Of a stretch of DNA of 23,596 bases, positions 5,355 to 23,596 are shown piece by piece. The DNA is from a virus. The first letter of the stretch is position 1. Every line of letters starts with the position of its first letter. A program made the position numbers and the translations under genes. Under the pieces are notes generated by a model that saw nothing but the letters and a program-made list of their open reading frames with translations, was not told where the DNA came from and ran no database searches. The stretch lies in IMG/VR virus record IMGVR_UViG_3300010885_087765, positions 1 through 23,596 of that record. The stretch is one strand, 5' to 3'.

Positions 5355-6533
5355 GTGAATCAATTTACTATTGATAAAAAATTTCTTGGCACCGAAAAAA
5401 ATCTTTTAGTGTCAGATAAAATGAAATGGGTTGATGAATCTTTACAGAATCATTATAATGGCGATTCATCAAATCTTGATATGTTATTTAAACTTTCAAA
5501 AATTGACTGTCCAACACAACCTAAAAATATAATTGATAGTATTAATATTGTTTTAAAAAATCATGAGTGTGATTATATTCAATGGAAAAAATTTGTTGGA
5601 AATGATTTTTACAAAATATGGTTAACAGAAAACGTTTCAAAAATTCGTAAAATATTTGAAAATGAAGAAATATTAAAATATTATAATGAATCTTGGGAAA
5701 AACATACAAAATTATTTGATTCATTACAAAAAGCCAAGATTAATTCAGAAAAGTTAAGATTATATCTTAGTTTAGAAAAAACAAATAAACACGTATTAAC
5801 GTCATTTTTCCCTGGGGCTGATGGATATGCACCAATATCTGTCTATAATAGGTTAGATACTCGTACAGGTAGATTAACGGTAAATAAAGGTCCTTCTATA
5901 TTGACATTAAAAAAAGAATGGCGTGATATTATAATACCATCATCAAGTGATCGAAAAATTCTCTCGGTTGATTTCTCGTCCCTAGAAGCAAGGATTGCAT
6001 ATGGTCTTAAGAATAAAGATAAACCTGCTGATGATATCTACGAACATATCAGAGAATTATTAGGAAATAATTTTACTCGTAGTCAAGTAAAAATTGCAAC
6101 AATTTCACTTCTTTATGGAATGAATGAAGGAAATTTAGTTGCCACGTTAGGTGGAAAAGAACAGGCAAAAACTTTATTAAAAGAAATTAAAAAGATCTTT
6201 AAAATAAAAGCTATAGAAGAAGAATTAAGAGGAAAGGTTAGTGGAGGAACAATTAAAAATTATTTTGGAAGGGTAATTGAAATTCCTGAAGACAGATTGA
6301 TAATAAATTCTTATATTCAATCAACGGGTGTTGAAATTGCATTACATGGATTTTCTAACCTAATTGTTGCGCTAAAAGACACAGATGTACGACCTCTTTA
6401 TATTTTACACGATGCATTGATTCTTGATGTTCCTAATTATGTAAACCTAAATGAAACAAGATATAAAGATTCTGTTGAACAAATACCAAACTGGAATATA
6501 AGATTTCCAGTACAGATAACAAATTTTTATTAA
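5355..6533 (+). CDS. Family A DNA polymerase, polymerase domain only
   Basis: A 392-aa DNA polymerase of the PolA family carrying only thumb, palm and fingers. Visible motifs are TGRLTV (about 173), motif A SVDFSSLEARI (about 205, catalytic Asp and steric-gate Glu), motif B RSQVK...LLYG (about 242) and motif C HDALILDV (about 351, second catalytic Asp). There is no 3'-5' exonuclease domain; full PolA-type phage enzymes are usually 600-900 aa. The N-terminal 150 residues are helical and unassigned. The start is GTG (5355), with no in-frame ATG before residue 23 and no clear ribosome site. The HD gene follows after 7 bp, so they are probably one operon. It is likely the replicative polymerase, with any proofreading subunit outside this window. 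The family call is firm. Confidence 0.88.
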   Translation: MNQFTIDKKFLGTEKNLLVSDKMKWVDESLQNHYNGDSSNLDMLFKLSKIDCPTQPKNIIDSINIVLKNHECDYIQWKKFVGNDFYKIWLTENVSKIRKIFENEEILKYYNESWEKHTKLFDSLQKAKINSEKLRLYLSLEKTNKHVLTSFFPGADGYAPISVYNRLDTRTGRLTVNKGPSILTLKKEWRDIIIPSSSDRKILSVDFSSLEARIAYGLKNKDKPADDIYEHIRELLGNNFTRSQVKIATISLLYGMNEGNLVATLGGKEQAKTLLKEIKKIFKIKAIEEELRGKVSGGTIKNYFGRVIEIPEDRLIINSYIQSTGVEIALHGFSNLIVALKDTDVRPLYILHDALILDVPNYVNLNETRYKDSVEQIPNWNIRFPVQITNFY

Positions 6534-6540
6534 GGTAACA

Positions 6541-7143
6541 ATGTTAGAACCAGAAAAAATTAAAGAAAATTGGGATAAATTTGAAAATTTATGTTTTTCA
6601 TTACTTGGTCATCGTACTGGTATGAATGAATTAGTTGATTCTATCAAAGAAGAGTTAGCATTATGTCCTGCATCCGGTAGATTAGACTTTCATAATGCAT
6701 TCCCCGGCGGATTATGTGACCATTCATTAAGAGTTCTTAATAATGCAGCTAAGCTTACTAAAGAACATGGTTGGACAGGGAAGTTTTCAAAAGAAAGTCT
6801 AATATTATCTGCATTATTTCATGATGTTGGAAAAGTTGGAATGCCAACTGATAATGGTTGGATTCCATATTATATTCCACAAGAATCTGATTGGCACCGC
6901 GATAAATTAGGTGAAATATATAAACATAATGATAAATTACCCTATATGTCTGTTCCACAACGCAGTGTTTTTATTATGCAATATTTTCATATAAAACTTT
7001 CATATGATGAATATCTTGCGATATTATTAAATGATGGGTGGGTTCTTCAGGAAAATAAAGGTTATTGTCTTAAAGAACCTCCACTAGCTCACGTTATTAT
7101 GACTGCCGATTATATTTCAACATTTCAAGAAAAAAAATCATGA
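6541..7143 (+). CDS. HD-domain phosphohydrolase
   Basis: A 200-aa protein with the metal-binding HD signature: His in 'CDHSLRVLNNAAKL' (about 60), the paired 'LFHDVGKVG' (about 98) and a later Asp in 'MTADYIS' (about 190). Such proteins hydrolyse phosphoester bonds, often of nucleotides; phages often carry them near replication and nucleotide-metabolism genes. An AAGG ribosome site precedes the ATG. The stop overlaps the next start by 4 bp (ATGA). The domain is clear; the substrate is unknown, and a role in nucleotide-pool control is inference from its neighbours. Confidence 0.8.
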   Translation: MLEPEKIKENWDKFENLCFSLLGHRTGMNELVDSIKEELALCPASGRLDFHNAFPGGLCDHSLRVLNNAAKLTKEHGWTGKFSKESLILSALFHDVGKVGMPTDNGWIPYYIPQESDWHRDKLGEIYKHNDKLPYMSVPQRSVFIMQYFHIKLSYDEYLAILLNDGWVLQENKGYCLKEPPLAHVIMTADYISTFQEKKS

Positions 7144-7673
7144 ATATTAAAAAATTTATAGAAACAACAACTGAAGGACCCGTTTTATTTGTTAATTCAT
7201 TTAGAGAAAAAATAATTGATACTTTAACTAAAATTAATATGCTTGAAAATAGTATTGATTTTTTAAATAAACAACAAAAATCAATCAACATGATGTTAGG
7301 TAAATATGAAGCTTATTTTGCAACTATTCAACAGGTAAATATAAAATATCAATCAGACGTGTTACAAACAATACAAGAAGCAATTAATACAATTCCAAAA
7401 CAAGGGCCTAAAGGTTTAAAAGGTTCACAAGGCGAAATCGGTCCAGAAGGTCCAGAAGGACCTCAAGGTATCCAGGGTCCACAAGGACCACAAGGTGAAA
7501 TAGGATCACGTGGTTTACAAGGTCCGGTTGGTTTAAAAGGTGAAGATTCAAGAATAGAAGTTGAAGAATTATTATTACGAGTTTCTGAATTAAAGGATAC
7601 GATTGGAAATATTGATTTATTTCTTACGTCAGTTGCAACACAATTAAATCTTGATTGGAAAAAAATGCATTGA
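7140..7673 (+). CDS. Collagen-like repeat protein
   Basis: A 177-aa protein in three parts. Residues 1-88 are helical, with heptad-like hydrophobic spacing suggesting a trimeric coiled coil. Residues 89-136 are 16 uninterrupted Gly-X-Y triplets rich in Pro, Gln, Lys and Glu. A short helical tail (137-177) ends in DWKKMH. Collagen-like stretches in phages usually sit in fibre or whisker proteins, so a virion decoration or fibre role is likely. Oddly it is translationally coupled to an HD hydrolase and sits between the DNA polymerase and the ssDNA-binding protein rather than among tail genes. No adhesin head or signal peptide is visible. Confidence 0.75.
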   Translation: MNIKKFIETTTEGPVLFVNSFREKIIDTLTKINMLENSIDFLNKQQKSINMMLGKYEAYFATIQQVNIKYQSDVLQTIQEAINTIPKQGPKGLKGSQGEIGPEGPEGPQGIQGPQGPQGEIGSRGLQGPVGLKGEDSRIEVEELLLRVSELKDTIGNIDLFLTSVATQLNLDWKKMH

Positions 7674-8687: not shown

Positions 8688-9431
8688 ATGGCTAAAAAAG
8701 AAAAACAAACTGAACAGGTTGTTGATACTAATGATGTTGCCGGTTTTACTGACGATCTTATTAAATCATTAAATAAAGAATTTTCACAAAGAGTTGCATA
8801 TAATCTTTCTGTTGATGAAGCACCGACAATTGTAAAACGTTGGGTATCAACAGGATGTGTGCAATTAGATTATATTATTGCAAATAAAAAAGGAGGTGGA
8901 TTACCTGAAGGCAGAATTATTGAAATATTTGGTCCACCTTCAAATGGCAAATCACACATCGCATTACAGGTATGTAAATCAACCCAAAAAATGGGTGGAA
9001 TTGTTGTTTACATAGATACTGAAAATGCAACAAGCATTGAAAATCTTGCTTCAATGGGAATTGATGTTTCAAAACGATTTGTTTATGTAGAATCAAGTTG
9101 TACAGAAGAAGTGTTTTCAATTATTGAATCAACGGTCATTAAGGCAAAACAATTAAAAAAAGATGTTCCAATTACAGTTGTTTGGGATTCAATCGCTGCA
9201 ACTTCACCAAAGGCTGAAATTGAAGGTGATTATGATCAACAAACAATTGGTCTACAGGCAAGAGTTCTTTCTAAAGGATTTAGAAAAATTACTGGTGTTA
9301 TTGGAGATAATAACGTAACACTTCTTTGTCTTAATCAAACAAGATTAAAAATAGGTGTAATGCATGGTGATCCAACTTGTGTAGACCCATATAAAACAAA
9401 AATAAAAATTAGATATGAATTAGAATCATAA
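8688..9431 (+). CDS. RecA/UvsX recombinase N-half fused to 17-aa split-intein N piece
   Basis: Residues 1-230 are the N-terminal part of a RecA-type recombinase: Walker A GPPSNGKS (82-89), catalytic Glu in IDTENA (112), Walker B VVWDS (164-168) and the DNA-loop region NQTRLKIGVMHGDPT, matching bacterial NQIRMKIGVMFGNP. Cys231 starts an intein and the frame stops after only 17 intein residues (CVDPYKTKIKIRYELES). The rest of the intein and of RecA is encoded at 9653. The halves join logically as ...GDPT + TTNGG..., matching RecA GNPETTTGG. Recombinase would therefore need protein trans-splicing, giving about 386 aa. A TATAAT box (8674) lies just upstream and there is no clear ribosome site. 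Confidence 0.9.
   Translation: MAKKEKQTEQVVDTNDVAGFTDDLIKSLNKEFSQRVAYNLSVDEAPTIVKRWVSTGCVQLDYIIANKKGGGLPEGRIIEIFGPPSNGKSHIALQVCKSTQKMGGIVVYIDTENATSIENLASMGIDVSKRFVYVESSCTEEVFSIIESTVIKAKQLKKDVPITVVWDSIAATSPKAEIEGDYDQQTIGLQARVLSKGFRKITGVIGDNNVTLLCLNQTRLKIGVMHGDPTCVDPYKTKIKIRYELES
9378..9428 (+). other. Split intein N-fragment (RecA), 17 aa
   Basis: It begins with the nucleophile Cys1 and carries only the first beta strand of block A (KTKIKIRYE). Standard split inteins have N-pieces near 100 aa; atypically split types such as AceL-TerL have about 25 aa. This one is at the short extreme. The split is real in the sequence: a stop follows and the remaining blocks are on another ORF. Confidence 0.85.
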
Positions 9432-9438
9432 TCAATAG

Positions 9439-9499
9439 AACATACCTGGTATAGTAATGCTTAGATTTTTGGATCTAAAACGACAATACCAGGTATGTT
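9439..9499 (+). promoter_or_regulatory. Large hairpin covering the start of the recA-insert ORF
   Basis: A perfect 14-bp stem pairs 9439-9452 (AACATACCTGGTAT) with 9486-9499. A second 6-bp stem (TTAGAT 9461-9466 / ATCTAA 9473-9478) is nested in the loop. It begins 7 nt after the recA N-half stop, and its 3' arm contains the ATG (9495) of the 53-aa ORF. It has no T-tract, so it is not a terminator. It should block initiation, or protect the 3' end of upstream mRNA. Similar hairpins repress phage T4 homing-endonuclease genes. Confidence 0.7.
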
Positions 9500-9656
9500 T
9501 AAATATGAATTTAAAATAAAAAATTTAAAGCCTATTTTTATAATAAAATTGATAACTGATAAAAAAGTTTTAAATTGTGAAGCTATTGTTCTTTGGGAAA
9601 ATGAGATTTATAATACAGAAGTATTGTATAAAAAAAATAAGGGAAATTGCAAATGA
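9495..9656 (+). CDS. Small unknown protein between recA halves
   Basis: A 53-aa Lys/Ile/Asn-rich ORF starting MFKYEFKIKNLKP and ending YKKNKGNCK. I do not recognise it. It fills the gap between the intein N-piece and C-piece, where fractured genes often carry a homing endonuclease, but no nuclease motif is visible. Its ATG is inside the 3' arm of a strong hairpin and its stop overlaps the downstream ATG by 4 bp (ATGA, 9653-9656), suggesting coupled translation with the C-half. It could be an endonuclease remnant, a small regulator, or non-functional. Confidence 0.5.
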   Translation: MFKYEFKIKNLKPIFIIKLITDKKVLNCEAIVLWENEIYNTEVLYKKNKGNCK

Positions 9657-10018
9657 AAAAAATAATTGAAGAAGAAATAACACTATATGAATTTGCTGAT
9701 AGATTCTTGAATCTTCAAGATATGAAAACATCTGGAAACTATGACATCTCAAATCTTGATATTAAAATTTTAAGTTTTGATGGTGAAAAAGAAGTCTACA
9801 AACCATTAACTAATTTTGTCGTTAAAGAAGGTGTTGATAAAACATATGTTCTTGGTGATTTAAGAGGAACGTCTGAACATAAAATTTTAGTAAATGGTGA
9901 ATATAAACCATTAAAAGATTGTGAAAATGTTCAAATTTTAAATGAAAAAATGGACGTTGTTGACGTATCAGTTGATGAAACTAATTGCTATGTTGCAAAT
10001 GGATTTATCAATCATAAT
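9653..10018 (+). other. Split intein C-fragment (RecA), 122 aa
   Basis: Contains block B (TSEH), block F and the terminal His-Asn, followed by Thr+1. All residues normally needed for splicing are visible across the two pieces: Cys1, Thr-x-x-His, His-Asn and a hydroxyl +1 residue. Confidence 0.85.
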
Positions 10019-10489
10019 ACAACAAATGGGGGTTTAGCATTACCTTTTCATGCTTCAGTTAGAATTCAACTACACGGTGGTTCTAAAGTTGAAGATAAAG
10101 ACGGTAATATAGTTGGTATTAATGTTACTGCTAAAACAGTAAAAAATAAAGTTGCTGCACCCCATCGTAGAGCAGAGTTTAAGATTATGTTTGGTCAAGG
10201 TATTGATGAAACAGAAGAATTATTTGATCTTTTACGATTAGCAGGTCCTAAAGAAATAGGCGATCACAAAATTTGTGTATCAGGTGATGGTGCATGGAAA
10301 TTATTTTCAGTTTCAAATTTAAAAACAGGCGAAGTTTTGGTAGAAGAAAAATTTTATAAAGCTAAATTTGGCGAATTACTTTCAAAAAAAGAATATAAAA
10401 AATATTTTGCTGATCTTATAGATGTAATGCTTGTTAAACAATTATATGTTGCAAGTGAAGAGAACGATGATGAACCAGAATCAAACTAA
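9653..10489 (+). CDS. Split-intein C piece (122 aa) fused to RecA/UvsX C-half
   Basis: Residues 1-122 carry the rest of the intein: EEEITLYEFADRFL (end of block A), GTSEHKILVN (block B, Thr-x-x-His) and NCYVANGFINHN (blocks F and G, ending His-Asn). Splicing resumes at Thr+1 of the RecA C-half (TTNGGLALPFHASVRIQL), like RecA TTTGGNALKFYAS; the C-half is 156 aa and has an acidic end. ATG 9653 is preferred over TTG 9647 because AAGGGA (9639-9644) lies 8 nt upstream. There is no endonuclease domain inside. The 139-aa total is a normal mini-intein size, so nothing appears lost and activity is plausible. Confidence 0.88.
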   Translation: MKKIIEEEITLYEFADRFLNLQDMKTSGNYDISNLDIKILSFDGEKEVYKPLTNFVVKEGVDKTYVLGDLRGTSEHKILVNGEYKPLKDCENVQILNEKMDVVDVSVDETNCYVANGFINHNTTNGGLALPFHASVRIQLHGGSKVEDKDGNIVGINVTAKTVKNKVAAPHRRAEFKIMFGQGIDETEELFDLLRLAGPKEIGDHKICVSGDGAWKLFSVSNLKTGEVLVEEKFYKAKFGELLSKKEYKKYFADLIDVMLVKQLYVASEENDDEPESN

Positions 10490-12902: not shown

Positions 12903-14738
12903 ATGAATAAAATTTATTCCCAAGAAGAAGTGTTAAAAGCATCAGTAGATTATTTCAACGGCGATTCACTTGCTGCCGATGTCTGGGTAAAGAAGTATGC
13001 ATTAAGAAATGAAAATGGTGAACTATTTGAATATACACCATCTGATATGCACAAGAGATTGGCTGGTGAATTTGCGCGTATTGAAGCAAATTACCCTAAT
13101 CCAATGTCAGAAAATGAAATTTATGATCTTTTAAAAAAGACCGATCAGGATGATCTTGGTATGGGTTATATAATCCCACAAGGTTCGCCTATGTCAGCAA
13201 TTGGTAATCCTTATAAGTTGCAATCTCTTTCAAATTGTTTTGTTATACCATCACCTCAAGATAGCTATGGAGGTATTTTATATACTGATCAACAACAAGT
13301 ACAGATTATGAAACGTCGAGGCGGCGTTGGGTTTGATATTTCTACAATTCGCCCAAAAGGTCTTTTAACAGCAAATGCCGCAGGCACAACAGATGGTATT
13401 GGCGTGTTTATGGAACGTTTCTCAAATACATGTAGAGAAGTTGCCCAGGGTGGAAGAAGAGGCGCTTTAATGATTACTATTTCTATAGTACATCCAGAAA
13501 TTGAAACTTTCATTAATATTAAAAGAGATCTTAAAAAAGTTACTGGTGCAAATATTTCTATTAAATTATCAGATGCATTTATGGATGCTGTTAAAAATAA
13601 TGATAATTTTACATTACAATGGCCTGTTGATGTACCTGTAGAAAAAGCAAAAATTACAAAAATTGTAAAAGCAAAAGATATGTGGGATCAAATAATTGAT
13701 GCTGCGTGGACATCAGCAGAACCTGGTTTATTATTTTGGGATAATGTTAAAAAACAAACTCCTGCAGATGCATATGAATCAAAAGGCTATGGTTCTATAA
13801 GTACAAACCCGTGCGCAGAACTCGTTTTAAGTGCATTTGATTCATGTAGATTATTAGTTCTTGATTTATCAAAATTTATTGATAAACCATTTAGTCATAA
13901 TGCAACGTTTAATTTTGATAAATTTAATAATTTTTCAATTAAGGCACAAAGATTAATGGATGACCTTGTCGATTTAGAGATCGAGGTTGTAGATAAAATA
14001 ATAGAAAAAATAAAAACTGATCCAGAACCTGATGATGTTAAATTAATTGAGTTAAATTTATGGAATTCAATTAAATCTGCAGCTTCTGGCGCTCGTAGAA
14101 CCGGATTAGGAATAACTGCACTTGGTGATGCATTAGCAATGCTTAATATTAAATATGGAAGTGATGCTTCAATAGAAATGACAGAAAAGATTTATAAATC
14201 ACTTTCTCTTGCTGCATATAGATCTTCAGTAATAATGGCAAAAGAAAGAGGAACATTTCCAGCATATGAATATGAACTTGAAAAAGATCATCCGTTTATT
14301 AATAAGGTTATGAATCTTGACGATAAATTAAAAAATGATTGGAAGTTATATGGTCGTAGGAATATTGCGTTAACTACGACCGCACCCGCCGGGTGTGTCG
14401 AGAAAAATACATTGCTTAAAACAGATCACGGTGATTTAACGATACAAATGTTATTTGAAAAAAATGGAATTAATATTTCAGATTTAAAAGATATGAATAA
14501 TATTTGGTTTGATGCAATTTCAAATATTAAAATTATGGATATTAATGGCGAATATCAAAAAATATCTAAACTGTATTGGAACGGTAAAGTTTCTTCTAAA
14601 GAATTTACTTTTTCTAATAAAGAAAAAATTAAAACATCATTAACACATAAATTTTTAGTAAAAATATCCAGTACAACAGCTAAATGGGTATCCGCATCTG
14701 AATTAAAAATTGGTGATAAAATTTTATCAATAAAATAA
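12903..14738 (+). CDS. nrdJ: Class II ribonucleotide reductase N-half with split-intein N piece
   Basis: Residues 1-497 are the catalytic barrel of an adenosylcobalamin-dependent (class II) ribonucleotide reductase, which makes dNTPs. Substrate-site Cys112 (LSNCFV), the radical motif NPCAE (Asn302, Cys304, Glu306) and partner Cys315 (DSCRLL) are all present. At the conserved TTAPAG loop Cys498 begins an intein N-piece of 114 aa with a block B TSLTHKFLV near its end, then a stop. The remainder lies at 15989, beyond an endonuclease gene. The joined protein would be about 846 aa and read TTAPAG+SVSTLTQ, the normal family sequence. AAAGGA precedes the ATG. Confidence 0.9.
   Translation: MNKIYSQEEVLKASVDYFNGDSLAADVWVKKYALRNENGELFEYTPSDMHKRLAGEFARIEANYPNPMSENEIYDLLKKTDQDDLGMGYIIPQGSPMSAIGNPYKLQSLSNCFVIPSPQDSYGGILYTDQQQVQIMKRRGGVGFDISTIRPKGLLTANAAGTTDGIGVFMERFSNTCREVAQGGRRGALMITISIVHPEIETFINIKRDLKKVTGANISIKLSDAFMDAVKNNDNFTLQWPVDVPVEKAKITKIVKAKDMWDQIIDAAWTSAEPGLLFWDNVKKQTPADAYESKGYGSISTNPCAELVLSAFDSCRLLVLDLSKFIDKPFSHNATFNFDKFNNFSIKAQRLMDDLVDLEIEVVDKIIEKIKTDPEPDDVKLIELNLWNSIKSAASGARRTGLGITALGDALAMLNIKYGSDASIEMTEKIYKSLSLAAYRSSVIMAKERGTFPAYEYELEKDHPFINKVMNLDDKLKNDWKLYGRRNIALTTTAPAGCVEKNTLLKTDHGDLTIQMLFEKNGINISDLKDMNNIWFDAISNIKIMDINGEYQKISKLYWNGKVSSKEFTFSNKEKIKTSLTHKFLVKISSTTAKWVSASELKIGDKILSIK
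14394..14735 (+). other. Split intein N-fragment (NrdJ), 114 aa
   Basis: Starts with Cys1 (CVEKNTLLKT) and contains block B (Thr-x-x-His in TSLTHKF) and WVSASELKIGDKI near the end, i.e. the usual region up to the endonuclease insertion point. The break is at the canonical split site. Confidence 0.87.
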
Positions 14739-14742
14739 TAAG

Positions 14743-14782
14743 TGACCACTGCTCTAATATATAATTATATGAGCAGTGGTCA
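14743..14782 (+). promoter_or_regulatory. Hairpin covering the start of the nrdJ-insert endonuclease
   Basis: TGACCACTGCTC (14743-14754) is a perfect 12-bp inverted repeat of 14771-14782, with an AT-only loop. It starts 5 nt after the nrdJ N-half stop. The GTG at 14742 sits at its foot and the ATG at 14769 runs into its 3' arm. No T-tract follows. The placement matches the recA hairpin at 9439, although the sequences differ. Confidence 0.7.
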
Positions 14783-15998
14783 TAATATAAATATAAAATT
14801 GTATCCTACAAAATGGGCAGAATATGTTGAAAAATTTGGAGAAGAAATTGCAAAAGAAAAATATTATGCATTTTGTAGATCTTTTTGTCTTGAAAAATAT
14901 CAATTAAAATATGGCGTTGAAAAAGGTGTAAAGCTTTTTAATGAAAAAAAATCATCAATAAAAAGAGGTGTAACCTTAGAAAGGTATACTAAAAAGTATG
15001 GTTTGGAAGAAGGTACCAAGAAATATAACGAATGGAAATCTTCAATAAGTGGCTCATTAGAAACATATATTAAAAGATATGGTGAAGAATTAGGAACAAA
15101 AAAATATAATGATTTTTGTAAAAAATGTTCAGATGCAGTTATAAAAGCAAAAGCAGATGAAAATTCAACATATAATAAAAGAATTATTACAGTATCATAT
15201 GATTATTTTTTAAAAAAAGCAAATGGCGATGAAATATTAGCATATCAGTTTTTAAAAAACAGACAGTCTAACTCAAAATTAGAAGATTTTATTAAAAGAT
15301 ATGGTGATGAAGAGGGTAAAAAAAGATACCAAAACGTTAATATGAAAAAAGCAATTACATTAGAAAATATGATTAGAGTACATGGTGAAAATTTAGGTCA
15401 TGAAAAATATGAAAAATGGTACTTTAACACTGGGAAACATTCTACATTACAATCTTTAATTGATAAACATGGTCATGATGATGGCACTAAAATTTATGCA
15501 GAGATAAATTCTAAAAAAGCAATTACATTAGAAAATATGATTAGAGTACATGGAAAAGAATTAGCATTAGAAAAATATGAACAATGGAAAAAAAAGATAT
15601 TATCTAGTAATAAAAGATATTCTAAAGGTGGGTTTTTATTTTGCAAAGAGTTACATCAATTATTAATTCAAAACCTAAATAATGAAACGCCTTATTATGG
15701 TGATAACGAATATTCTGTAGTGTATAAAAAAGAAGATGTAATAAAACAATACTTTCCAGATTTTTTAATTAAATCACAAAAAATTATAGTTGAATATTAT
15801 GGTGATTATTGGCATCGCAATCCGGAAAAATATTCTGGAGAGCAGGCAGAAAAAATTTGGGAATTAGACAAACAAAGAATTTATAATTTAAATGAATTAG
15901 GGTATAAAGTTTTTTATGTTTATGAGTCTGATATAACAAAAAATTATAAAAATACAATTGAATTATTATTAAAGGAAATAAATGAATCATGGAAATAA
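14769..15998 (+). CDS. Free-standing homing endonuclease, Vsr-like with YG-repeats
   Basis: A 409-aa protein in two parts. Residues about 10-285 hold about eight degenerate 20-35-residue repeats of the form 'hL..hh.+YG.E.G..KY..W', probably DNA-reading modules. Residues about 295-405 resemble the Vsr/EDxHD nuclease fold: FPDFLIKSQKIIVEYYGDYWHRNP, with an Asp and a Trp-His as in Vsr, followed by 'LDKQRIYNLNELGYKVFYVYESDI'. Vsr-like free-standing endonucleases are known between split-intein halves in 'fractured' phage genes, where they spread the locus. A GTG start at 14742 is possible; ATG 14769 is preferred, and neither has a ribosome site. Its end overlaps the nrdJ C-half start by 10 bp. Confidence 0.82.
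   Translation: MSSGHNINIKLYPTKWAEYVEKFGEEIAKEKYYAFCRSFCLEKYQLKYGVEKGVKLFNEKKSSIKRGVTLERYTKKYGLEEGTKKYNEWKSSISGSLETYIKRYGEELGTKKYNDFCKKCSDAVIKAKADENSTYNKRIITVSYDYFLKKANGDEILAYQFLKNRQSNSKLEDFIKRYGDEEGKKRYQNVNMKKAITLENMIRVHGENLGHEKYEKWYFNTGKHSTLQSLIDKHGHDDGTKIYAEINSKKAITLENMIRVHGKELALEKYEQWKKKILSSNKRYSKGGFLFCKELHQLLIQNLNNETPYYGDNEYSVVYKKEDVIKQYFPDFLIKSQKIIVEYYGDYWHRNPEKYSGEQAEKIWELDKQRIYNLNELGYKVFYVYESDITKNYKNTIELLLKEINESWK
15345..15385 (+). repeat. 41-nt direct repeat, copy 1
   Basis: Identical over 41 nt to 15513-15553, 168 nt downstream. It encodes a repeat-unit start (AITLENMIRVHG). Exact identity at DNA level points to recent duplication or conversion between units of the DNA-binding region. 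Confidence 0.85.
15513..15553 (+). repeat. 41-nt direct repeat, copy 2
   Basis: The second identical copy of the 41-nt block at 15345, in the same reading frame; the 168-nt offset equals 56 residues, about two repeat units. Confidence 0.85.
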
Positions 15999-16129
15999 TT
16001 GATATTACAAATTTAAATTTACAAGAAGTTGAAATTACAAATATTGATGATTGTATAATTGAAACTATGGATATAGAAGTTCCAAATGGGCATCATTATG
16101 TGCTTTCTTCAGGTATTATAAGTCATAAT
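15989..16129 (+). other. Split intein C-fragment (NrdJ), 47 aa
   Basis: Contains block F (DIEVPNGHHYVLSSGI) and block G (SHN), followed by Ser+1. With the 114-aa N-piece it makes a 161-aa canonical split intein; all catalytic residues are present. Confidence 0.87.
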
Positions 16130-17179
16130 TCTGTCTCAACACTTACACAAACAACATCTGGGATTGAACCTGTTTTTATGACATCTTATAAACGCAGAAG
16201 AAAATTAAATCCAAATGATATAGAATCAAAAGTTGATTTTGTTGATCAACTTGGTGATAAATGGCAGGAATATATAGTTTATCACCATTCTTATCGTAAA
16301 TGGTTGGATTCACAAGAAATTTTAAATGATCCAACCCAACAACAAATTGAACGATCTCCTTATTATGGCGCAACTGCAAATGAAATTGATTGGGTAAAGT
16401 CGATTGATTTAATGTCTTCAGCACAAAAATGGATATGTCATTCACTTAGTAAAACTGTGAATTTACCAAATTCAGTTACGCAAGATGAAGTCGCCGCTGT
16501 TTATATGAGAGGTTGGGAATCTGGGTGTAAAGGTGTAACAGTTTATCGAGATGGTTGTAGAACCGGTGTTCTTGTTTCTATTGATGAAAAAAAAGAAAAT
16601 AAGAATGAAATAAAATTTGAACAACGATTTGCTCCAAAACGTCCTGAATCATTGGAATGTCATGTTCATAGGGTTGTTGTAAGATCTGGGGATGTTACAG
16701 AATCATATCTTGTGTTTGTTGGTATGTTAGATGGCAAACCTTATGAAATTTTCTGTGGGCCTTCTGGCAATATAGATGTACCTAAAAAAGCAAAACATGG
16801 ACAGATTATAAAGAAAACTCGTAAAGATGGAAATTCAAAATATGATTTAATCATTCCTATTGGCGATGATGATTCACTTACTTTACGAGATATTGTTTGT
16901 CTTTTTGATAGCCCAAATGATGGTGCTCTTACAAGAACAATTTCATTAGCCCTCAGACATGGTGCACCAGTACAATATATTGTTGAGCAACTTCAAAAAG
17001 ATAAACGAAGTGATATGCAATCATTTAATAGAGTAGTTGCTAGAGTTCTTAAAAATTATATTCCAAATGGAACAACATCTTCAGATAAAAAATGTTATGA
17101 ATGTAGTTCAGAGAATGCGTTAGTTTATAAAGAGGGTTGTGTATCATGTATACAATGTGGAAATTCAAAATGTGGATGA
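15989..17179 (+). CDS. nrdJ: Split-intein C piece fused to class II ribonucleotide reductase C-half
   Basis: Residues 1-47 are the intein C-piece, ending HHYVLSSGIISHN with terminal His-Asn. Ser48 is the +1 residue and starts the NrdJ C-half SVSTLTQTTSGIEPVF, which normally follows TAPAG. The rest completes the barrel, then a TSCPD-like domain (about 215-345) and a C-terminal Cys-rich zinc-type end (CYECSSEN ... CVSCIQCGNSKCG) typical of NrdJ, whose cysteines re-reduce the active site. The ATG lies inside the last codons of the endonuclease, so translation is probably coupled. A strong bidirectional terminator follows. Confidence 0.9.
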   Translation: MEIIDITNLNLQEVEITNIDDCIIETMDIEVPNGHHYVLSSGIISHNSVSTLTQTTSGIEPVFMTSYKRRRKLNPNDIESKVDFVDQLGDKWQEYIVYHHSYRKWLDSQEILNDPTQQQIERSPYYGATANEIDWVKSIDLMSSAQKWICHSLSKTVNLPNSVTQDEVAAVYMRGWESGCKGVTVYRDGCRTGVLVSIDEKKENKNEIKFEQRFAPKRPESLECHVHRVVVRSGDVTESYLVFVGMLDGKPYEIFCGPSGNIDVPKKAKHGQIIKKTRKDGNSKYDLIIPIGDDDSLTLRDIVCLFDSPNDGALTRTISLALRHGAPVQYIVEQLQKDKRSDMQSFNRVVARVLKNYIPNGTTSSDKKCYECSSENALVYKEGCVSCIQCGNSKCG

Positions 17180-17199
17180 TTTAGAAATAAACTGTGAAT

Positions 17200-17227
17200 A
17201 AAAATCAGGGCGATCGCCCTGATTTTT
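17200..17227. terminator. Bidirectional terminator, perfect 28-nt palindrome
   Basis: A perfect palindrome with core TCAGGGCGATCGCCCTGA flanked by A5 and T5. It works in both directions between convergent genes: nrdJ C-half (+) and the kinase-like gene (-), whose stop codon overlaps its last bases. Confidence 0.9.
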
Positions 17228-17939
17228 ATTTGTATAATTTTTTAAAAGTTTCTTTTGTAATCCCATAATCAAGAAGAGCAAGAGAACCATCTTTTTTAAT
17301 TCCCCACGATGAAGTTTTTGCTATATCTCCTTCAAGAAGACCTTTATATCTTTTTAAAAATGATTTAAAATTTTCTATAAAATTATTATTATTTGATTTT
17401 AAATTTGTTTTATTTTGAGTTACGTTATTGTGAGAAACTGTCACATTATTACTATCATTAGAATCAATTCCAAGTGCACTTCTAATTTTTTCCCAAGGAA
17501 TACCGATTATTTCTTCTGCTCGTACTTCTTCGCCATCATTAAGCGGGTTTAATCTTTCTGCTATAACCCAAGAAAAGTTAACATCATCATATTGATAAAC
17601 ACTAGCCAGTATTTTATGTGCAAAAGGATCCTTACCAGCAAATGCTTCTATTTTATTTTGTGCTATTCCCTTTTGATCTATTGCTAATTTAATAACTTTA
17701 TCATTATCAATTACAAAAACTCTTCTTGCACTACCTCTACCAAGAAATGTTAATCCAAACAATTTTGCTGCATCGAACATTGCCCAATATTCATCAGTAG
17801 ATTTTTCACCATCTTCATCGCGCCATGATCTATAATCTTGAAATGCATCATCAATCCAGTCAAGAGGATCTGTAGATTCTATTACATCGTCCATTGATTC
17901 AAGAATAAGAGCTCTTATATATTTTTTTAATAATTTCAT
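17226..17939 (-). CDS. Protein-kinase-like protein with capsid-targeting-like N-terminus
   Basis: A 237-aa protein. Residues 1-15 (MKLLKKYIRALILES) match the start of the divergent neighbour at 18005 and contain I-x-E. Then comes a kinase-like layout: Gly loop LGRGSARRVF (66-75), Lys84 in VIKLA, hinge-like AERLNPL (127-133), a weak catalytic loop GDIAKTSSWG (204-213) and DYG (224-226) in place of DFG. The usual catalytic-loop Asn appears replaced by Ser/Trp, so activity is doubtful. An Asn-rich insert lies at about 163-186. T4 packages proteins with an N-terminal targeting peptide cut after (L/I)-x-E and injects them; this could be such a protein. The kinase-like fold is moderately sure; packaging is inference. 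Confidence 0.6.
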   Translation of the reverse strand: MKLLKKYIRALILESMDDVIESTDPLDWIDDAFQDYRSWRDEDGEKSTDEYWAMFDAAKLFGLTFLGRGSARRVFVIDNDKVIKLAIDQKGIAQNKIEAFAGKDPFAHKILASVYQYDDVNFSWVIAERLNPLNDGEEVRAEEIIGIPWEKIRSALGIDSNDSNNVTVSHNNVTQNKTNLKSNNNNFIENFKSFLKRYKGLLEGDIAKTSSWGIKKDGSLALLDYGITKETFKKLYK

Positions 17940-18734: not shown

Positions 18735-19495
18735 ATGAATAATTTAGTACTATCAATCCTCGCGGCTCTTTCAATAACATCAACAGCATCTGCAACAAAT
18801 TATGCAATCTTTTTCCATGGCAGAACCCAGCAGAACTGGGGCACCCCGCTCCAGGGCGGCGCGGGCTCAGCCACGACGATCCCAGCCGGTTACACGGCCG
18901 TGGACGACACGTCGTGGAACGGCACGGCGCGCATCGACAGCGTGATTCCTTACGCGGCCTACGCGGCAAAGTGCGCGGCACCAAACACGTGCATCATCTA
19001 CAACTACTCGACGGCGGCCTTGTGACGCAGCGCCTCGAGCTCTTGACGGCGGCGAAGCCAGTCCACGTGAACTCGTTCGCAAGCGCGGGCGGCGGTTCGG
19101 AACTTGCTGACTCGTGCGGCTGGGTTACGCAGTGGGGCTGCTACTACGGCGGCGTCGACGACAACCTGAAGCCAAGCTGGGCCCGCAACGGCGGCAACGC
19201 GCTTCAAAGCGGCGGCAACGGTTCGACGTGGCACGTGGCCGGCAACGGCTGGAGCTGGCTCGGCGTTGCAACGGCAGCGATCATCAACGGCGACGACGAC
19301 GGCGCCACGGGCCCGCACTCGAACACGGGTTGCGACTCGTCGAACAGCTTCAGTCTCCCCACGAGCTGCACCTACTCGTGCGGCTTCATGTGGTTGAGCA
19401 CCTGCGGCGGCCGCAAGGCGAACCACAAGCAGTGGGTTACGGGCGGCTGGACGCACTTCAACATCCAGCCTGCGCAGAAGACCTACTGGAACTGA
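18735..19495 (+). pseudogene. Secreted alpha/beta-hydrolase-like gene, hybrid and frameshifted
   Basis: AAGGAG (18718-18723) serves ATG 18735. Residues 1-20 (MNNLVLSILAALSITSTASA) are a signal peptide in AT-rich codons. The mature part starts TNYAIFFHGR, and from about codon 30 codons become strongly GC-rich. The frame stops at 19025, but a one-base shift at 19011-19013 restores a long frame to 19495. The corrected sequence reads IIYNYSTGGLVTQ, a Ser nucleophile-elbow-like motif, with later Asp (NGDDDG) and His (ANHKQW) as possible triad members. The repaired length is about 253 aa. Lipase/esterase-like is inference. The frameshift may be a sequencing error. The reading frame crosses the AT/GC boundary intact. 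Confidence 0.55.
18815..18835. other. AT-rich phage / GC-rich bacterial DNA boundary
   Basis: Codon choice and base composition change within about 20-30 bp inside the signal-peptide gene. Upstream is phage-like AT-rich DNA, downstream uniformly GC-rich bacterial DNA. I see no direct repeat, att core, tRNA or transposase at the boundary. Confidence 0.8.
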
Positions 19496-19535
19496 GCTGC
19501 GCTGCAGCGAGGCTTTGAGCTTCGCGCAACACGAG

Positions 19536-19569
19536 GAGGCTGCCCTTGCGAGGGTGGCCTCTTTGTGTT
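19536..19569 (+). terminator. Terminator after the hydrolase-like gene
   Basis: GAGGCTGCCCT (19536-19546) pairs with AGGGTGGCCTC (19551-19561) through 11 bp including two G-U pairs, loop TGCG, then a T-rich end. It closes the hydrolase-like transcript 40 bp after its stop. Confidence 0.65.
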
Positions 19570-19591
19570 GGTCGATGCACCTTGCACGTGA

Positions 19592-20254
19592 TTGCACGTG
19601 ATTGTTCCCAGCGCGCGCGGTGAGCGGTGCTACCGATTGCCTGTGCTCACTTCGCTCCCCACGGTGGCCCTGGCGCTTGCGACGGGTGCCCGTCATGCGT
19701 TCGAGCCGGACCACTTGGCGGCCGTGTCGACCCTTGTGGCGGGGGCTCCGAACCGTCGTGCGATGGTGCTTCAAGGGCTTGCATGGGGCGCCGGGCACGG
19801 CCTCGCGGTGGGGCTGGCGTCGGCCGTGTTGCTTCCGCTTCGTCACTTGCTTCCCGCGCGCCTCGACGACGCTCTTGAGCTCGGGGTGGCCTGCGTTCTG
19901 CTCGCGCTTGGAGTGCGCTCATTGATGGACGCCGGGTTGACCCATGCGCCGCATCGGCATCGCGGTACGCCTCTCGCCGTGGGCTTTGCGCACGGACTCG
20001 CGGGCAGTGGCGCTCTCGTTGCCACGCTTGCGGCCCTCGAGTCGTCGGTCGGGGTGCGTGTACTTTACATTGGTGCTTTCGGCCTCGGTGCCACGGGTGC
20101 CATGGCGGCGATCGCCGGCTTTTTTGGCGCAAGCCTCGCGAAGGCCATGACGTTTGCTCATGTTCGTCGCCGCGTGCAGCTCACCGCGGGCGCCATTTCG
20201 TCGGCCGTTGGCATCGGTTGGGGCATGCGCGCCCTCGCGGCCCTCGTCGGCTGA
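19592..20254 (+). CDS. NiCoT/UreH-like membrane transporter
   Basis: A 220-aa integral membrane protein with about six hydrophobic segments. The first carries GARHAFEPDHLAAVSTL, close to the nickel/cobalt transporter signature (His-x4-Asp-His), and a second Gly/His segment (GFAHGLAGSGALVATL) follows a His-rich loop (HAPHRHRG). Transport of nickel, cobalt or a related metal across the inner membrane is likely. The start is uncertain: TTG 19592 gives an unusual N-terminus, while GTG 19643 would begin just before the first membrane segment and may be the true start. No strong ribosome site is visible for either. Codon use is typical of the GC-rich part. Confidence 0.7.
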   Translation: MHVIVPSARGERCYRLPVLTSLPTVALALATGARHAFEPDHLAAVSTLVAGAPNRRAMVLQGLAWGAGHGLAVGLASAVLLPLRHLLPARLDDALELGVACVLLALGVRSLMDAGLTHAPHRHRGTPLAVGFAHGLAGSGALVATLAALESSVGVRVLYIGAFGLGATGAMAAIAGFFGASLAKAMTFAHVRRRVQLTAGAISSAVGIGWGMRALAALVG

Positions 20255-20266
20255 CCCGCAAGTTCG

Positions 20267-21493
20267 TTACGGCAACGCCGCTCGGTCGGCGGCTTCGACG
20301 CGCTTGAGCGACGCGATGAACAGCAGCGCCACCGCCATTCCGACCGCGCCCGACAGGTACGGCGACCGCGGTCCCGAATACGTGTAGAATGCACCACCGA
20401 GCGCCGGGCCAACCATGCGCGCGAGGGCAGCCATCGCCTGGTTCGCGCCGAGAACGGACCCTTGCTCGGACGCGTCGGCACGCTTCGAAACGAAGGCCGA
20501 GATCGACGGCTGCGAGATGCCATTGCCGAACGCGGCGAGAGCTCCGCCGACGTAGAGCGCGGTCCGTCCGAAGTCGGGTGCCGCGGCAAAGACCAAGAAC
20601 GCAACGACTTGCAGCGCCAACCCCACCGCAATAAGCGTGGACTCTGCAACCTTTCCGCTGAGGCGTCGAACGATGCCGCCCTGCACGAGCGCTCCGATGA
20701 CGCCGATGAAGGCGAGCACATTCCCGGTCTCGCGCATCGTCATGCCGAAGGCGTCCGCGTTGAAGAATCGGAACGTCGCTTCGAGATTGGTGAAGCTCAA
20801 GATGATGACGAAGTTCGTCAGGATCACGAGCCGCAGCGGCGGGTCCTGCAGGTAGTGGACGAGCCCCTTGGACCCGGTTTCCTTGCGGCGCTTTGCGGCT
20901 TCATCGCGACGCTCTTTGGGCAGGGATTCCGGAAGGCCGAAGGCGACCCAGACGAGGTTCACAAGGCTTAGGGCAGCGGCAGCGAAGCACGCCATGGGGC
21001 CGCTGCGCCCGTTGACGGTCATCTCGGCGAGCAGGCCGCCGACCGCGGGCCCGAGGATGAATCCGAGTCCGAACGCGACGCCAAAAAGCGCCATGCCCTT
21101 TGCGCGATCTTCGGGCGTGGTCACGTCGGCGATGTACGCGCTGCCGACGCCGAGATTCGCCGTGGCTGCGCCGCCCAAGATGCGTGCGACGAAGAGCGCC
21201 ACGATGGACGTTCCCCACGCGAGCGCGCTTCCGAGGCCGACCATGGAGAGCACGGTCATCGCGACGCTGATGGTGAGCACGGGCTTGCGTCCGATGCGGT
21301 CCGAAAGGCGCCCCCACAGCGGCGCGCAAAGGAACTGCATCAGCGAGTAGACCGATGCGAGGAGCGTCCCGACGAACGCGCTCGTGTGGAAAACCCGGCG
21401 AGCCTCGTCGGAGAGGAACGGAAAGACGAGTCCAAACCCGAGCAAATCGAGGAGGATCGTGAGGAAAATGGGCCCGAGGGAAGCGCGCCGCAT
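20267..21493 (-). CDS. MFS drug/metabolite exporter (DHA1/TetA-like)
   Basis: A 408-aa twelve-helix Major Facilitator protein. After the first two helices comes motif A (GRLSDRIGRKPV, about 61-72), and helix 5 has a motif C-like GFILGPAVGG (about 150-160). A basic loop (PKERRDEAAKRRKETG) separates the two six-helix halves. Size and motifs fit proton-driven exporters of the tetracycline/multidrug type in the inner membrane. It ends 12 bp from the convergent transporter gene. The family is firm; the substrate is unknown. The start ATG is close to the divergent lipoprotein gene (about 115 bp). Confidence 0.85.
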   Translation of the reverse strand: MRRASLGPIFLTILLDLLGFGLVFPFLSDEARRVFHTSAFVGTLLASVYSLMQFLCAPLWGRLSDRIGRKPVLTISVAMTVLSMVGLGSALAWGTSIVALFVARILGGAATANLGVGSAYIADVTTPEDRAKGMALFGVAFGLGFILGPAVGGLLAEMTVNGRSGPMACFAAAALSLVNLVWVAFGLPESLPKERRDEAAKRRKETGSKGLVHYLQDPPLRLVILTNFVIILSFTNLEATFRFFNADAFGMTMRETGNVLAFIGVIGALVQGGIVRRLSGKVAESTLIAVGLALQVVAFLVFAAAPDFGRTALYVGGALAAFGNGISQPSISAFVSKRADASEQGSVLGANQAMAALARMVGPALGGAFYTYSGPRSPYLSGAVGMAVALLFIASLKRVEAADRAALP

Positions 21494-21608
21494 GGCGGGG
21501 CAGCCGATAGCACGTGTGGCGCAGACCCTGAGCGTTGATGCGAATGCGGCGAAGGGATGCCCGCGAGACGATGGTCTCGTGCGTCAAAGCCGCTACGCTG
21601 GCGCGACG

Positions 21609-22877
21609 ATGGTGACGATTCGCGCGCGCCTGCTCTTGACCTTGGGTTTCCTCGTGGCGTGTGGCCTTCCGACGCAGGGCACGCGTGACGACGTCGCGGA
21701 AACCGATGGCGGTCTTGTGGCCGACGCCGAGTTTTTCCCCGATGCCGCCGATCGCGATGCCGCCGATCGCGATGCGCGTGCCGCCGACAGCAACGCGGAC
21801 GACAGCAGTGTTGACGCGGGAAATGCAGGGAATGACGCCGCTCCCGCCGCCGACGCGCAAACGGACTCCTCAAGCGATTCGTCGGCACCTGTCGACGCTG
21901 CGGCAGATGCGCGCGCGGACGGCGCAACGGGCGATGCGTGTACTCCGCAAGGAAGTGAAGACTGCACGAACGGGCGCGACGACGACTGCGATGGTCTTGT
22001 CGACTGCGCGGACCCGGAGTGCGCGCCTCAATACGAATGCGTTCCCGAAGTTCCGTCGGGCTGGACGAAGGCGGCGCTTTCGGTGGGCTCGAGGCCCGCG
22101 TGCCCCGGTGGTTATGCGTCTCCGCGCGACGTGGTGATGGGCCTCACGGGAGCGGCCGCGGCGTGCGTTTGCACCTGCAATTCTTCAGGGTCTGCGTCGT
22201 GCGTGAAGGGCAACGTCACGTTCTACGGGCCGAGCATCATTGGAAGCGACTGCTCGACGTTCGGCTCCTCCTCCACGAGTACGGGCGACGGCGCGTGCCA
22301 GTCGAATTTGCCTTTCGGGCTCTTCGGCTTTGGCATGATCGGCGCGAATGCGAACGTGCGCGTGACGAACGTGGCACTCACGCCCAACACGTGCAGCGGG
22401 AGCGTCCAGAAGACAGTTCCTCCGGCGGTCACGACCGAGGGCGCGCGCTGTCTTGCGTCGTCGTCGTCGACAGGCGGCGGCTGCACCTCGGGGCAAGTTT
22501 GTGCGCGGCGCACGGGCAGCGTTTATCAGTCGTGTGTCGCGAAAACCGGCGTGAGCAGCTGCCCGGCGACGTGGCCGACGAAGCGCGACACGGGCACGGG
22601 GCTCAGCGACACGCGCAACTGCGGCTCGTGCACGTGCGGCACCACGGCGGTGTGTGGACCGGCGACGCTCACCTTCTCGGAAGACAACAGCTGCGGCGGA
22701 GCGTCGGTGTCCGTGGCCGCGGACAACGCCTGCCACGCGATGAGCACTCCAGGCCAAAACGTGAGCTCGTGGCGCTACGCTTCGCAGGTGCACAACGAGG
22801 GCTGCCAAAAGACCGCAGACGCGCAGCCCACAGGGGCCGTGAGCCTCACCTCAAGCGAGCTCGTTTGTTGTCGTTAA
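21609..22877 (+). CDS. Cys-rich lipoprotein with MopE-type metal-binding motif
   Basis: A 422-aa secreted lipoprotein. ATG 21609 gives MVTIRARLLLTLGFLVAC, a lipoprotein signal with lipobox LVAC; the longer frame from 21384 lacks a signal and is rejected. Residues about 25-115 are a low-complexity Ala/Asp/Ser linker. About 118-143 read C-x-NGRDDDCDGLVDCADPEC, the Cys/Asp motif of MopE-type putative metal-binding repeats common in Myxococcota and relatives. The rest (about 155-422) has many regularly spaced cysteines, probably disulfides, in a repeated beta-rich layout. It likely sits in the outer membrane. The function is unknown; metal or surface binding is inferred. Confidence 0.72.
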   Translation: MVTIRARLLLTLGFLVACGLPTQGTRDDVAETDGGLVADAEFFPDAADRDAADRDARAADSNADDSSVDAGNAGNDAAPAADAQTDSSSDSSAPVDAAADARADGATGDACTPQGSEDCTNGRDDDCDGLVDCADPECAPQYECVPEVPSGWTKAALSVGSRPACPGGYASPRDVVMGLTGAAAACVCTCNSSGSASCVKGNVTFYGPSIIGSDCSTFGSSSTSTGDGACQSNLPFGLFGFGMIGANANVRVTNVALTPNTCSGSVQKTVPPAVTTEGARCLASSSSTGGGCTSGQVCARRTGSVYQSCVAKTGVSSCPATWPTKRDTGTGLSDTRNCGSCTCGTTAVCGPATLTFSEDNSCGGASVSVAADNACHAMSTPGQNVSSWRYASQVHNEGCQKTADAQPTGAVSLTSSELVCCR

Positions 22878-22904
22878 GCTGGTAAAACGCAGCCGTTCCC
22901 GTCG

Positions 22905-23596
22905 TTACGCCGTAACGCCGAGTTCTTCGCGCAGCAGCCGCATGGCTTCGGCCGCCGCCACGCGTTCCGCCATGCGCTTCGACTCACCTTCGCCAACCGC
23001 CATGGCGCGCTCGCCGAGGAGCACCTCCACGCGAAAGACGAGCTTCTTCGCATTGCTTGTATCTTCCACGGATCGGTAATTGGGCGTGCCGAGCTTGTGC
23101 GCCTGGGCGAGCTCTTGAAACGCGCTCTTCGGGTCGCGCGCATCAAGGAGCTGATCGTCGTCGATGCTGTCGCCCACGAGCGCCTGCACGAAAGCCTTCG
23201 CGGCGTCGAAGCCGAGCCCCAGGTAAATCGCTCCGAGAACCGCTTCGGTCACGTCGCATAGAACGCTTGTGGACTCGCCTTCACCGGCACCTTCCGCGCC
23301 TTTGCCGAGCCTGAGCACTGCACCGAGATTCACGTTTCGCGCCCAGGCCGCGAGAGCGTTCGCGTTCACGAGAGCTGCGCGCATGCGGGTGAGTTGCCCT
23401 TCGCTCGCTTGCGGAAATCGCGCGAACAGAAGCTCGGACACCGCGAGGCTCAGGATGGCGTCACCGAGAAACTCAAGTCGCTCGTAGTGCGGCCCTGCGT
23501 CCTTCGACTCGTTCGGAAGACTCGGATGCGTGAGCGCTTCTTCGAGGCGGGGTATCGGTCCCGGTCCCAGAATCGATTCAAGATGTGCGGAAAAAG
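22905..23596 (-). CDS. rnc: Ribonuclease III, 5' partial
   Basis: The frame stays open to the window edge, so the GTG at 23441 is internal. Reading upstream on the - strand gives LEEALTHPSLPNES, then ERLEFLGDAILSLAVSELL, the RNase III signature with catalytic Glu/Asp. A second acidic site lies in CDVTEAVLGAIYLG. The C-terminal about 75 residues are a double-stranded RNA-binding domain (DPKSAFQELAQAH ... AERVAAAEAMRLLREEL). The enzyme cuts dsRNA in rRNA processing and mRNA turnover. About 230 residues are present, close to the full E. coli length (226), so little is missing. It lies 27 bp from, and converges with, the lipoprotein gene. Confidence 0.93.
   Translation of the reverse strand, partial: FSAHLESILGPGPIPRLEEALTHPSLPNESKDAGPHYERLEFLGDAILSLAVSELLFARFPQASEGQLTRMRAALVNANALAAWARNVNLGAVLRLGKGAEGAGEGESTSVLCDVTEAVLGAIYLGLGFDAAKAFVQALVGDSIDDDQLLDARDPKSAFQELAQAHKLGTPNYRSVEDTSNAKKLVFRVEVLLGERAMAVGEGESKRMAERVAAAEAMRLLREELGVTA

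Follow-up and report, generated by a model that had tools for sequence, protein, structure and literature searches.

The window analysed here, the whole of a 23,596-nt stretch of viral DNA (IMG/VR record IMGVR_UViG_3300010885_087765), carries an nrdJ gene for a class II, B12-dependent ribonucleotide reductase (RNR) that is split at TTAPAG|SVST into an N-half and a C-half open reading frame (ORF), with one intein half fused to each and a free-standing endonuclease gene lying in between (Table 1). All evidence consists of sequence and prediction. It points, with a probability of about 0.88, to a mobile 'fractured gene' element in phage nrdJ. A broader account, in which the element also controls its endonuclease through a hairpin, carries an operator and sits beside recoded codons, is likely to be the best explanation of the locus as a whole.

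A sequence-only reading of the window had proposed an N-half of 497 aa plus a 114-aa intein part, an endonuclease, and a C-half of 47 intein residues plus 349 aa, in this order; the ORFs are exactly as claimed, and the C-half does start inside the endonuclease end (15989 compared with 15998). Joining the halves was said to restore TTAPAG+SVSTLTQ, and the profiles agree: in NrdJ_Z (TIGR02504) the N-extein covers positions 2–460 (9e-105) and the C-extein positions 459–604 (8e-34), contiguous across the break, and class II RNR (NrdJ) models match across both halves (TIGR02504; 1xje alignment). On T. maritima NrdJ (1xje) the break maps between G492 and S493, within the reductase loop to which the insertion had been assigned. 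Both joints are recognised by TIGR intein models (N, E 4e-4; C, 8e-6), and the residues required for splicing are all present in the intein halves (C1, SxxH, the terminal H-N and the +1 Ser). Against solved structures, the whole intein matched mainly the Pho RadA intein, and weakly; PCNA entries were taken as spurious. The two NrdJ halves are predicted to be joined by a trans-splicing split intein, yielding a complete class II RNR. The layout recurs, at 99.84% identity, in a second assembled contig of this phage. Chance origin of the layout was excluded because this contig and seven further phage lineages repeat it at one codon boundary, with 35 relatives uninterrupted.

These relatives were gathered by searches with the endonuclease, the N-terminal intein half (IntN) and the nrdJ halves. 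The seven further lineages (L085/L074, of which LR756500 spans 462 kb; L078; L079; L080; L081–L083; L084; L088) share the arrangement, the codon boundary and a full-length homologous endonuclease, which substantiates the earlier suggestion that a layout known from phages had been found. All nine loci returned by an endonuclease profile search lie between an nrdJ IntN and its C-terminal counterpart (IntC). In 35 distinct related phage nrdJ genes, N- and C-extein are directly joined at the site. Close relatives were not found in bacterial or archaeal genomes, and at the DNA level nothing in the phage collection matched.

The Vsr-like character that had been attributed to the endonuclease is supported by its sequence, by profiles, by the predicted structure and by the phages compared. 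By homology, the enzyme's likelier start is the in-frame ATG at 14769 rather than the GTG at 14742. The C-terminal part resembles Vsr and DUF559 (2.5e-6), and in a model built from eight relatives (mean pLDDT 73.6, pTM 0.42) the best fold match of the nuclease domain is the catalytic domain of I-Bth0305I (3r3p; Z 10.9, root-mean-square deviation 2.9 over 97 residues), followed by Vsr (1vsr; Z 9.3). Weak fold matches of the whole model include mitoribosomal proteins. E314, D331 and H349 (numbered from ATG 14769) are invariant in all eight sequences and D368 is found in seven; these positions are consistent with a putative EDxHD site. A review places I-Bth0305I in a family of group I homing endonucleases (PMC3943268). 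The enzyme of the window differs from it in that its gene lies within a split intein and in its N-terminal ~280 residues, an array of tandem helical hairpins with YGxExG-like motifs. This array had no convincing match among solved structures (model pTM 0.31) and may serve in DNA binding. The predicted target of the endonuclease is intein-less nrdJ, at or beside the TxAP|S codons.

The alternative to a mobile element is an immobile relic: an ancient fracture inherited vertically and precisely lost several times, with an endonuclease that may no longer home and has been kept since the C-half has its start region within the endonuclease gene. The C-half indeed begins there in most loci, in some without a Shine–Dalgarno sequence of its own, and between fractured loci the exteins, inteins and endonucleases have diverged to a broadly similar degree. 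Such a relic nevertheless appears improbable. Fractured alleles are scattered over the extein tree, which takes five changes, at least four of them forced by well-supported branches; the nuclease residues are conserved in all eight sequences. In L079 the extein shares 80–81% identity with empty alleles, but the intein and endonuclease share only 34–48% with their counterparts at the other loci. The pairing of L081 with L085 in the extein tree, itself of moderate support (82/89), is rejected by the endonuclease data (p-AU 9e-6). Because of this scatter, the closeness of the L079 extein to empty alleles and the rejection of the L081+L085 pair, a mobile element fits the distribution better than vertical descent alone, and the empty sites together with the scattered alleles fit homing into empty alleles. 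Two considerations count against mobility: repeated loss could also give a patchy distribution, and the other conflicts between extein and endonuclease trees are not significant, so that the conflict is only partly significant overall.

For the mobile element, the following course of events is proposed. The nrdJ halves would be made separately and joined by the split intein. Where phages with an intein-less nrdJ co-infect, the endonuclease would cut that gene at the TxAP|S codons or right beside them. Repair would then copy the IntN–endonuclease–IntC block into the break, a step supported by the eight loci at one codon boundary and the 35 empty sites. A hairpin would limit endonuclease output by hiding the start codon and, in most loci, the ribosome-binding site. 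The endonuclease probably also binds the hairpin arms, since these are inverted copies of the homing half-site, and would thereby repress its own gene, as I-TevI does. In the least certain step, synonymous recoding of the flanking codons possibly makes the resident allele a poor target.

The hairpin over the endonuclease start of the window has a folding z of −7.55. A start hairpin is present in all eight loci (z −1.6 to −7.9), compared with an average of 0.1 at 69 other ORF starts on the same contigs (p 5e-6). Its arms vary in sequence between phages yet remain complementary, as expected of compensatory change: own arms average −18.9 kcal/mol compared with −10.8 when swapped, and only 2 of 40,320 permutations, the true pairing counted, are as good. 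The 3′ arm or its edge contains the start codon and, in most loci, the Shine–Dalgarno sequence. A T4 late promoter candidate, TATAAATA at 14786, was not above chance, and the TAATATATA loop motif was only suggestive as a promoter; no late promoter was shown. Control of endonuclease output by the hairpin is the probable function of this structure. For T4-type homing endonucleases, hairpins at the ribosome-binding site have been documented, as has an operator similar to the homing site (PMC2988022). The sequestering layout of I-TevI, I-TevII, I-TevIII, segB and Aeh1 mobE is found here as well; these systems differ in nuclease family and in residing in an intron instead of a split intein, and in the loci described here both hairpin arms are copies of the homing half-site.

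This likeness of the arms concerns nrdJ just upstream of the insertion. When the hairpins were scanned along 630 bp of 34 empty alleles, the best combined match among 617 positions fell at −20 (forward) and −19 (reverse), with scores of about 5 and 8.7 standard deviations, respectively. With synonymous codons allowed, the arms of L079, L080 and L084 match their own T-x-A-P codons 12/12, and those of the window, L085 and L081 match theirs 11/12. Across the RNR loci, seven of nine show an operator-like similarity to their homing site. The I-TevI operator resembles the homing site, is bound equally well and is cut about 100-fold less (PMC2988022); from this precedent and the mimicry of the arms, self-repression through a putative operator is proposed, a function to which even odds may be given.

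The second sequence feature beside the insertion is an excess of G/C-ending codons. Among the last six pre-insertion codons of the fractured alleles, 23 end in G or C, where the codon usage of these alleles predicts 6.4 (z 7.3, or 6.0 when the window's locus is left out), the largest z among 395 other scanning windows being 2.55. Empty alleles show no effect at the same codons (55 compared with 56.2 expected). Similar recoding was inconsistent in fractured uvsW or NPC-site loci and absent from the uvsX gene of the window. That recoding confers self-immunity, rendering the resident allele a poor target, is a tentative proposal.

The hairpin and the recoding each allow a plainer reading. The hairpin might serve RNA-level translation control only, its likeness to the homing site being a by-product of the Shine–Dalgarno sequence: the Ala-Pro codons contain GCTCC, whose reverse complement is GGAGC. 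The matching strand is indeed the one with the Shine–Dalgarno sequence in most nrdJ loci. This reading is nonetheless doubtful: the arms in the window lack a Shine–Dalgarno sequence, yet match TTAP 11/12 on both strands, and those of the class I RNR locus L004, whose site is TVKP, also lack one and match TVKP 12/12 but TxAP only 9–10, the reverse of the nrdJ hairpins. Several points speak against hairpin control and mimicry: the L078 hairpin is weak, neither L078 nor L088 has a convincing mimic, and the p-values for the mimic are optimistic because the loci are related and both mimic and recoding were noticed before they were tested. As to the G/C-ending codons, they may represent a co-conversion tract, or have a role in translation or in the structure of the mRNA, rather than protect against the endonuclease, and the balance for this view is about level. 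The tract lies directly at the junction, and resident and mimic third bases are no more different than chance (7 of 24 agree, 9.1 expected). Against it, the elements are AT-rich (0.08–0.30 G+C at third codon positions), the recoded codons vary from locus to locus, and the effect is one-sided, being limited to codons −5 to −1 of the N side. The comparison of resident and mimic third bases was also the direct test of self-immunity, and its outcome was not significant.

Table 1. Features of the fractured nrdJ locus (window coordinates)
Feature	Position	Strand	Evidence or remark
N-half ORF	12903-14738	+	611 aa = 497 extein + 114 IntN; junction reads TTAPAG + CVEKN
NrdJ N-extein, 497 aa, ending TTAPAG	12903..14393	+	Pfam Ribonuc_red_lgC 3e-64; NrdJ_Z 9e-105; aligned to 1xje up to G492
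Last five N-extein codons, ACC GCA CCC GCC GGG	14379..14393	+	4/5 G/C-ending, in an AT-rich gene
IntN, 114 aa, stop included	14394..14738	+	TIGR01445 4e-4; homologous IntN at seven other loci
Endonuclease ORF, Vsr/EDxHD type	14742..15998	+	GTG start; DUF559 2.5e-6; Vsr; I-Bth0305I fold; eight-sequence alignment
Inverted repeat/RNA hairpin over endonuclease start	14743..14782	+	Between N-half stop and endonuclease start; 5′ arm ACCACTGCTC resembles T-T-A-P codons of insertion site
Endonuclease N-terminal helical-hairpin array	14769-15630	+	51-nt DNA repeats, six copies
C-half ORF	15989-17179	+	396 aa = 47 IntC + 349 extein; begins within last endonuclease codons
IntC, 47 aa, ending SHN	15989..16129	+	TIGR01443 8e-6; start overlaps endonuclease end, as in most related loci
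NrdJ C-extein, 349 aa, beginning SVSTLTQ, stop included	16130..17179	+	NrdJ_Z 459-604; 1xje from S493
34-nt perfect palindrome (inverted repeat), terminator-like, just past nrdJ	17197..17230	.	blastn self-complementary match to second contig of same phage

The NrdJ-1 split intein, which stems from metagenomic sources, likewise lies in a class II RNR, which it interrupts at NPC|SE. The window has an uninterrupted NPC motif, its insertion lying at TTAPAG|S. 'Fractured genes', in which a host gene is divided between two ORFs that carry the halves of a split intein, with a free-standing endonuclease from a new family between them, were reportedly described by Dassa and colleagues in 2009; host gene halves, split intein and intervening endonuclease are all present here. 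As far as its account in PMC3653736 goes, that survey included two nrdJ subunits interrupted by inteins. The arrangement itself was thus already known, and the start hairpin, the site mimic and the recoding appear new as far as searched: none of the three was described in the literature covered, most subscription papers lying outside it, and within the same coverage there was no paper joining split inteins, homing endonucleases, hairpins and ribosome-binding sites. These three features and the breadth of the arrangement's distribution also go beyond the sequence-only reading.

Fractures were also found in other genes, with names for L004/L005, L026 and the uvsW-like genes taken from reading the translations. 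A class I-like RNR in L004/L005 is fractured at two sites, one equivalent to that of the window and with an endonuclease of the same family; in L004 (4310-7765) a separate nuclease-like ORF lies in each of the two fractures. In L026 an RNR is fractured at an apparently equivalent site with an endonuclease of another type. The nrdJ of L079 (2575-8161) seems to have three breaks, each accompanied by a nuclease-like ORF. A uvsW-like helicase is fractured at ATGAGK|C with a Vsr-type endonuclease in L006, L009–L011 and L013–L015, and the Shine–Dalgarno region of this endonuclease reads ACAGGAGCAGGGAAA or close to it, matching T-G-A-G-K, the codons before the insertion, at 14–15 of 15 positions. It is conceivable, though somewhat against the odds, that fractured-gene homing endonucleases of nrdJ, class I RNR and uvsW share a control module, with own-start mimics of the target in the hairpin or ribosome-binding site for self-repression and, in nrdJ, recoding beside the resident site.

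The uvsX/RecA-like gene of the window (8688-10489) is split as well. Its N-half ends GDPT|CVDPYKTKIKIRYELES with a 17-aa IntN, and its C-half carries the remaining intein, ending FINHN|TTNGG. The gap of 215 bp holds a strong hairpin, free of a homing-site mimic, and a 53-aa ORF overlapping the C-half start. This ORF is perhaps the leftover of an endonuclease; derivation from the nrdJ endonuclease found no support. Elsewhere in the window, a short phage protein encoded at 7140-7673 contains GXY repeats resembling collagen (Pfam Collagen 6e-9), and 5355-6533 holds a family A DNA polymerase ORF of only 392 aa that matches the C-terminal part of the phage polymerase profile. From 18735 to 23596 the GC content climbs to about 66%. 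A near-identical contig, L027, matches the window to 19498 and is then AT-rich, whereas the window runs on into bacterial-like genes (MFS transporter, RNase III); at 19013 L027 has one extra base and an intact 253-aa ORF, the window version being frameshifted. An assembly chimaera near 19498 is likely, and what follows about 19.5 kb in the window is probably not of phage origin; the nrdJ finding is unaffected.

The nrdJ loci provide eight naturally split inteins that belong to one family and whose empty sites are defined, which makes fractured-gene homing testable. Their hairpins suggest how an endonuclease is held in check within a gene that is essential. Should the mimic be an operator, one could predict what an uncharacterised homing endonuclease targets from that enzyme's own leader.
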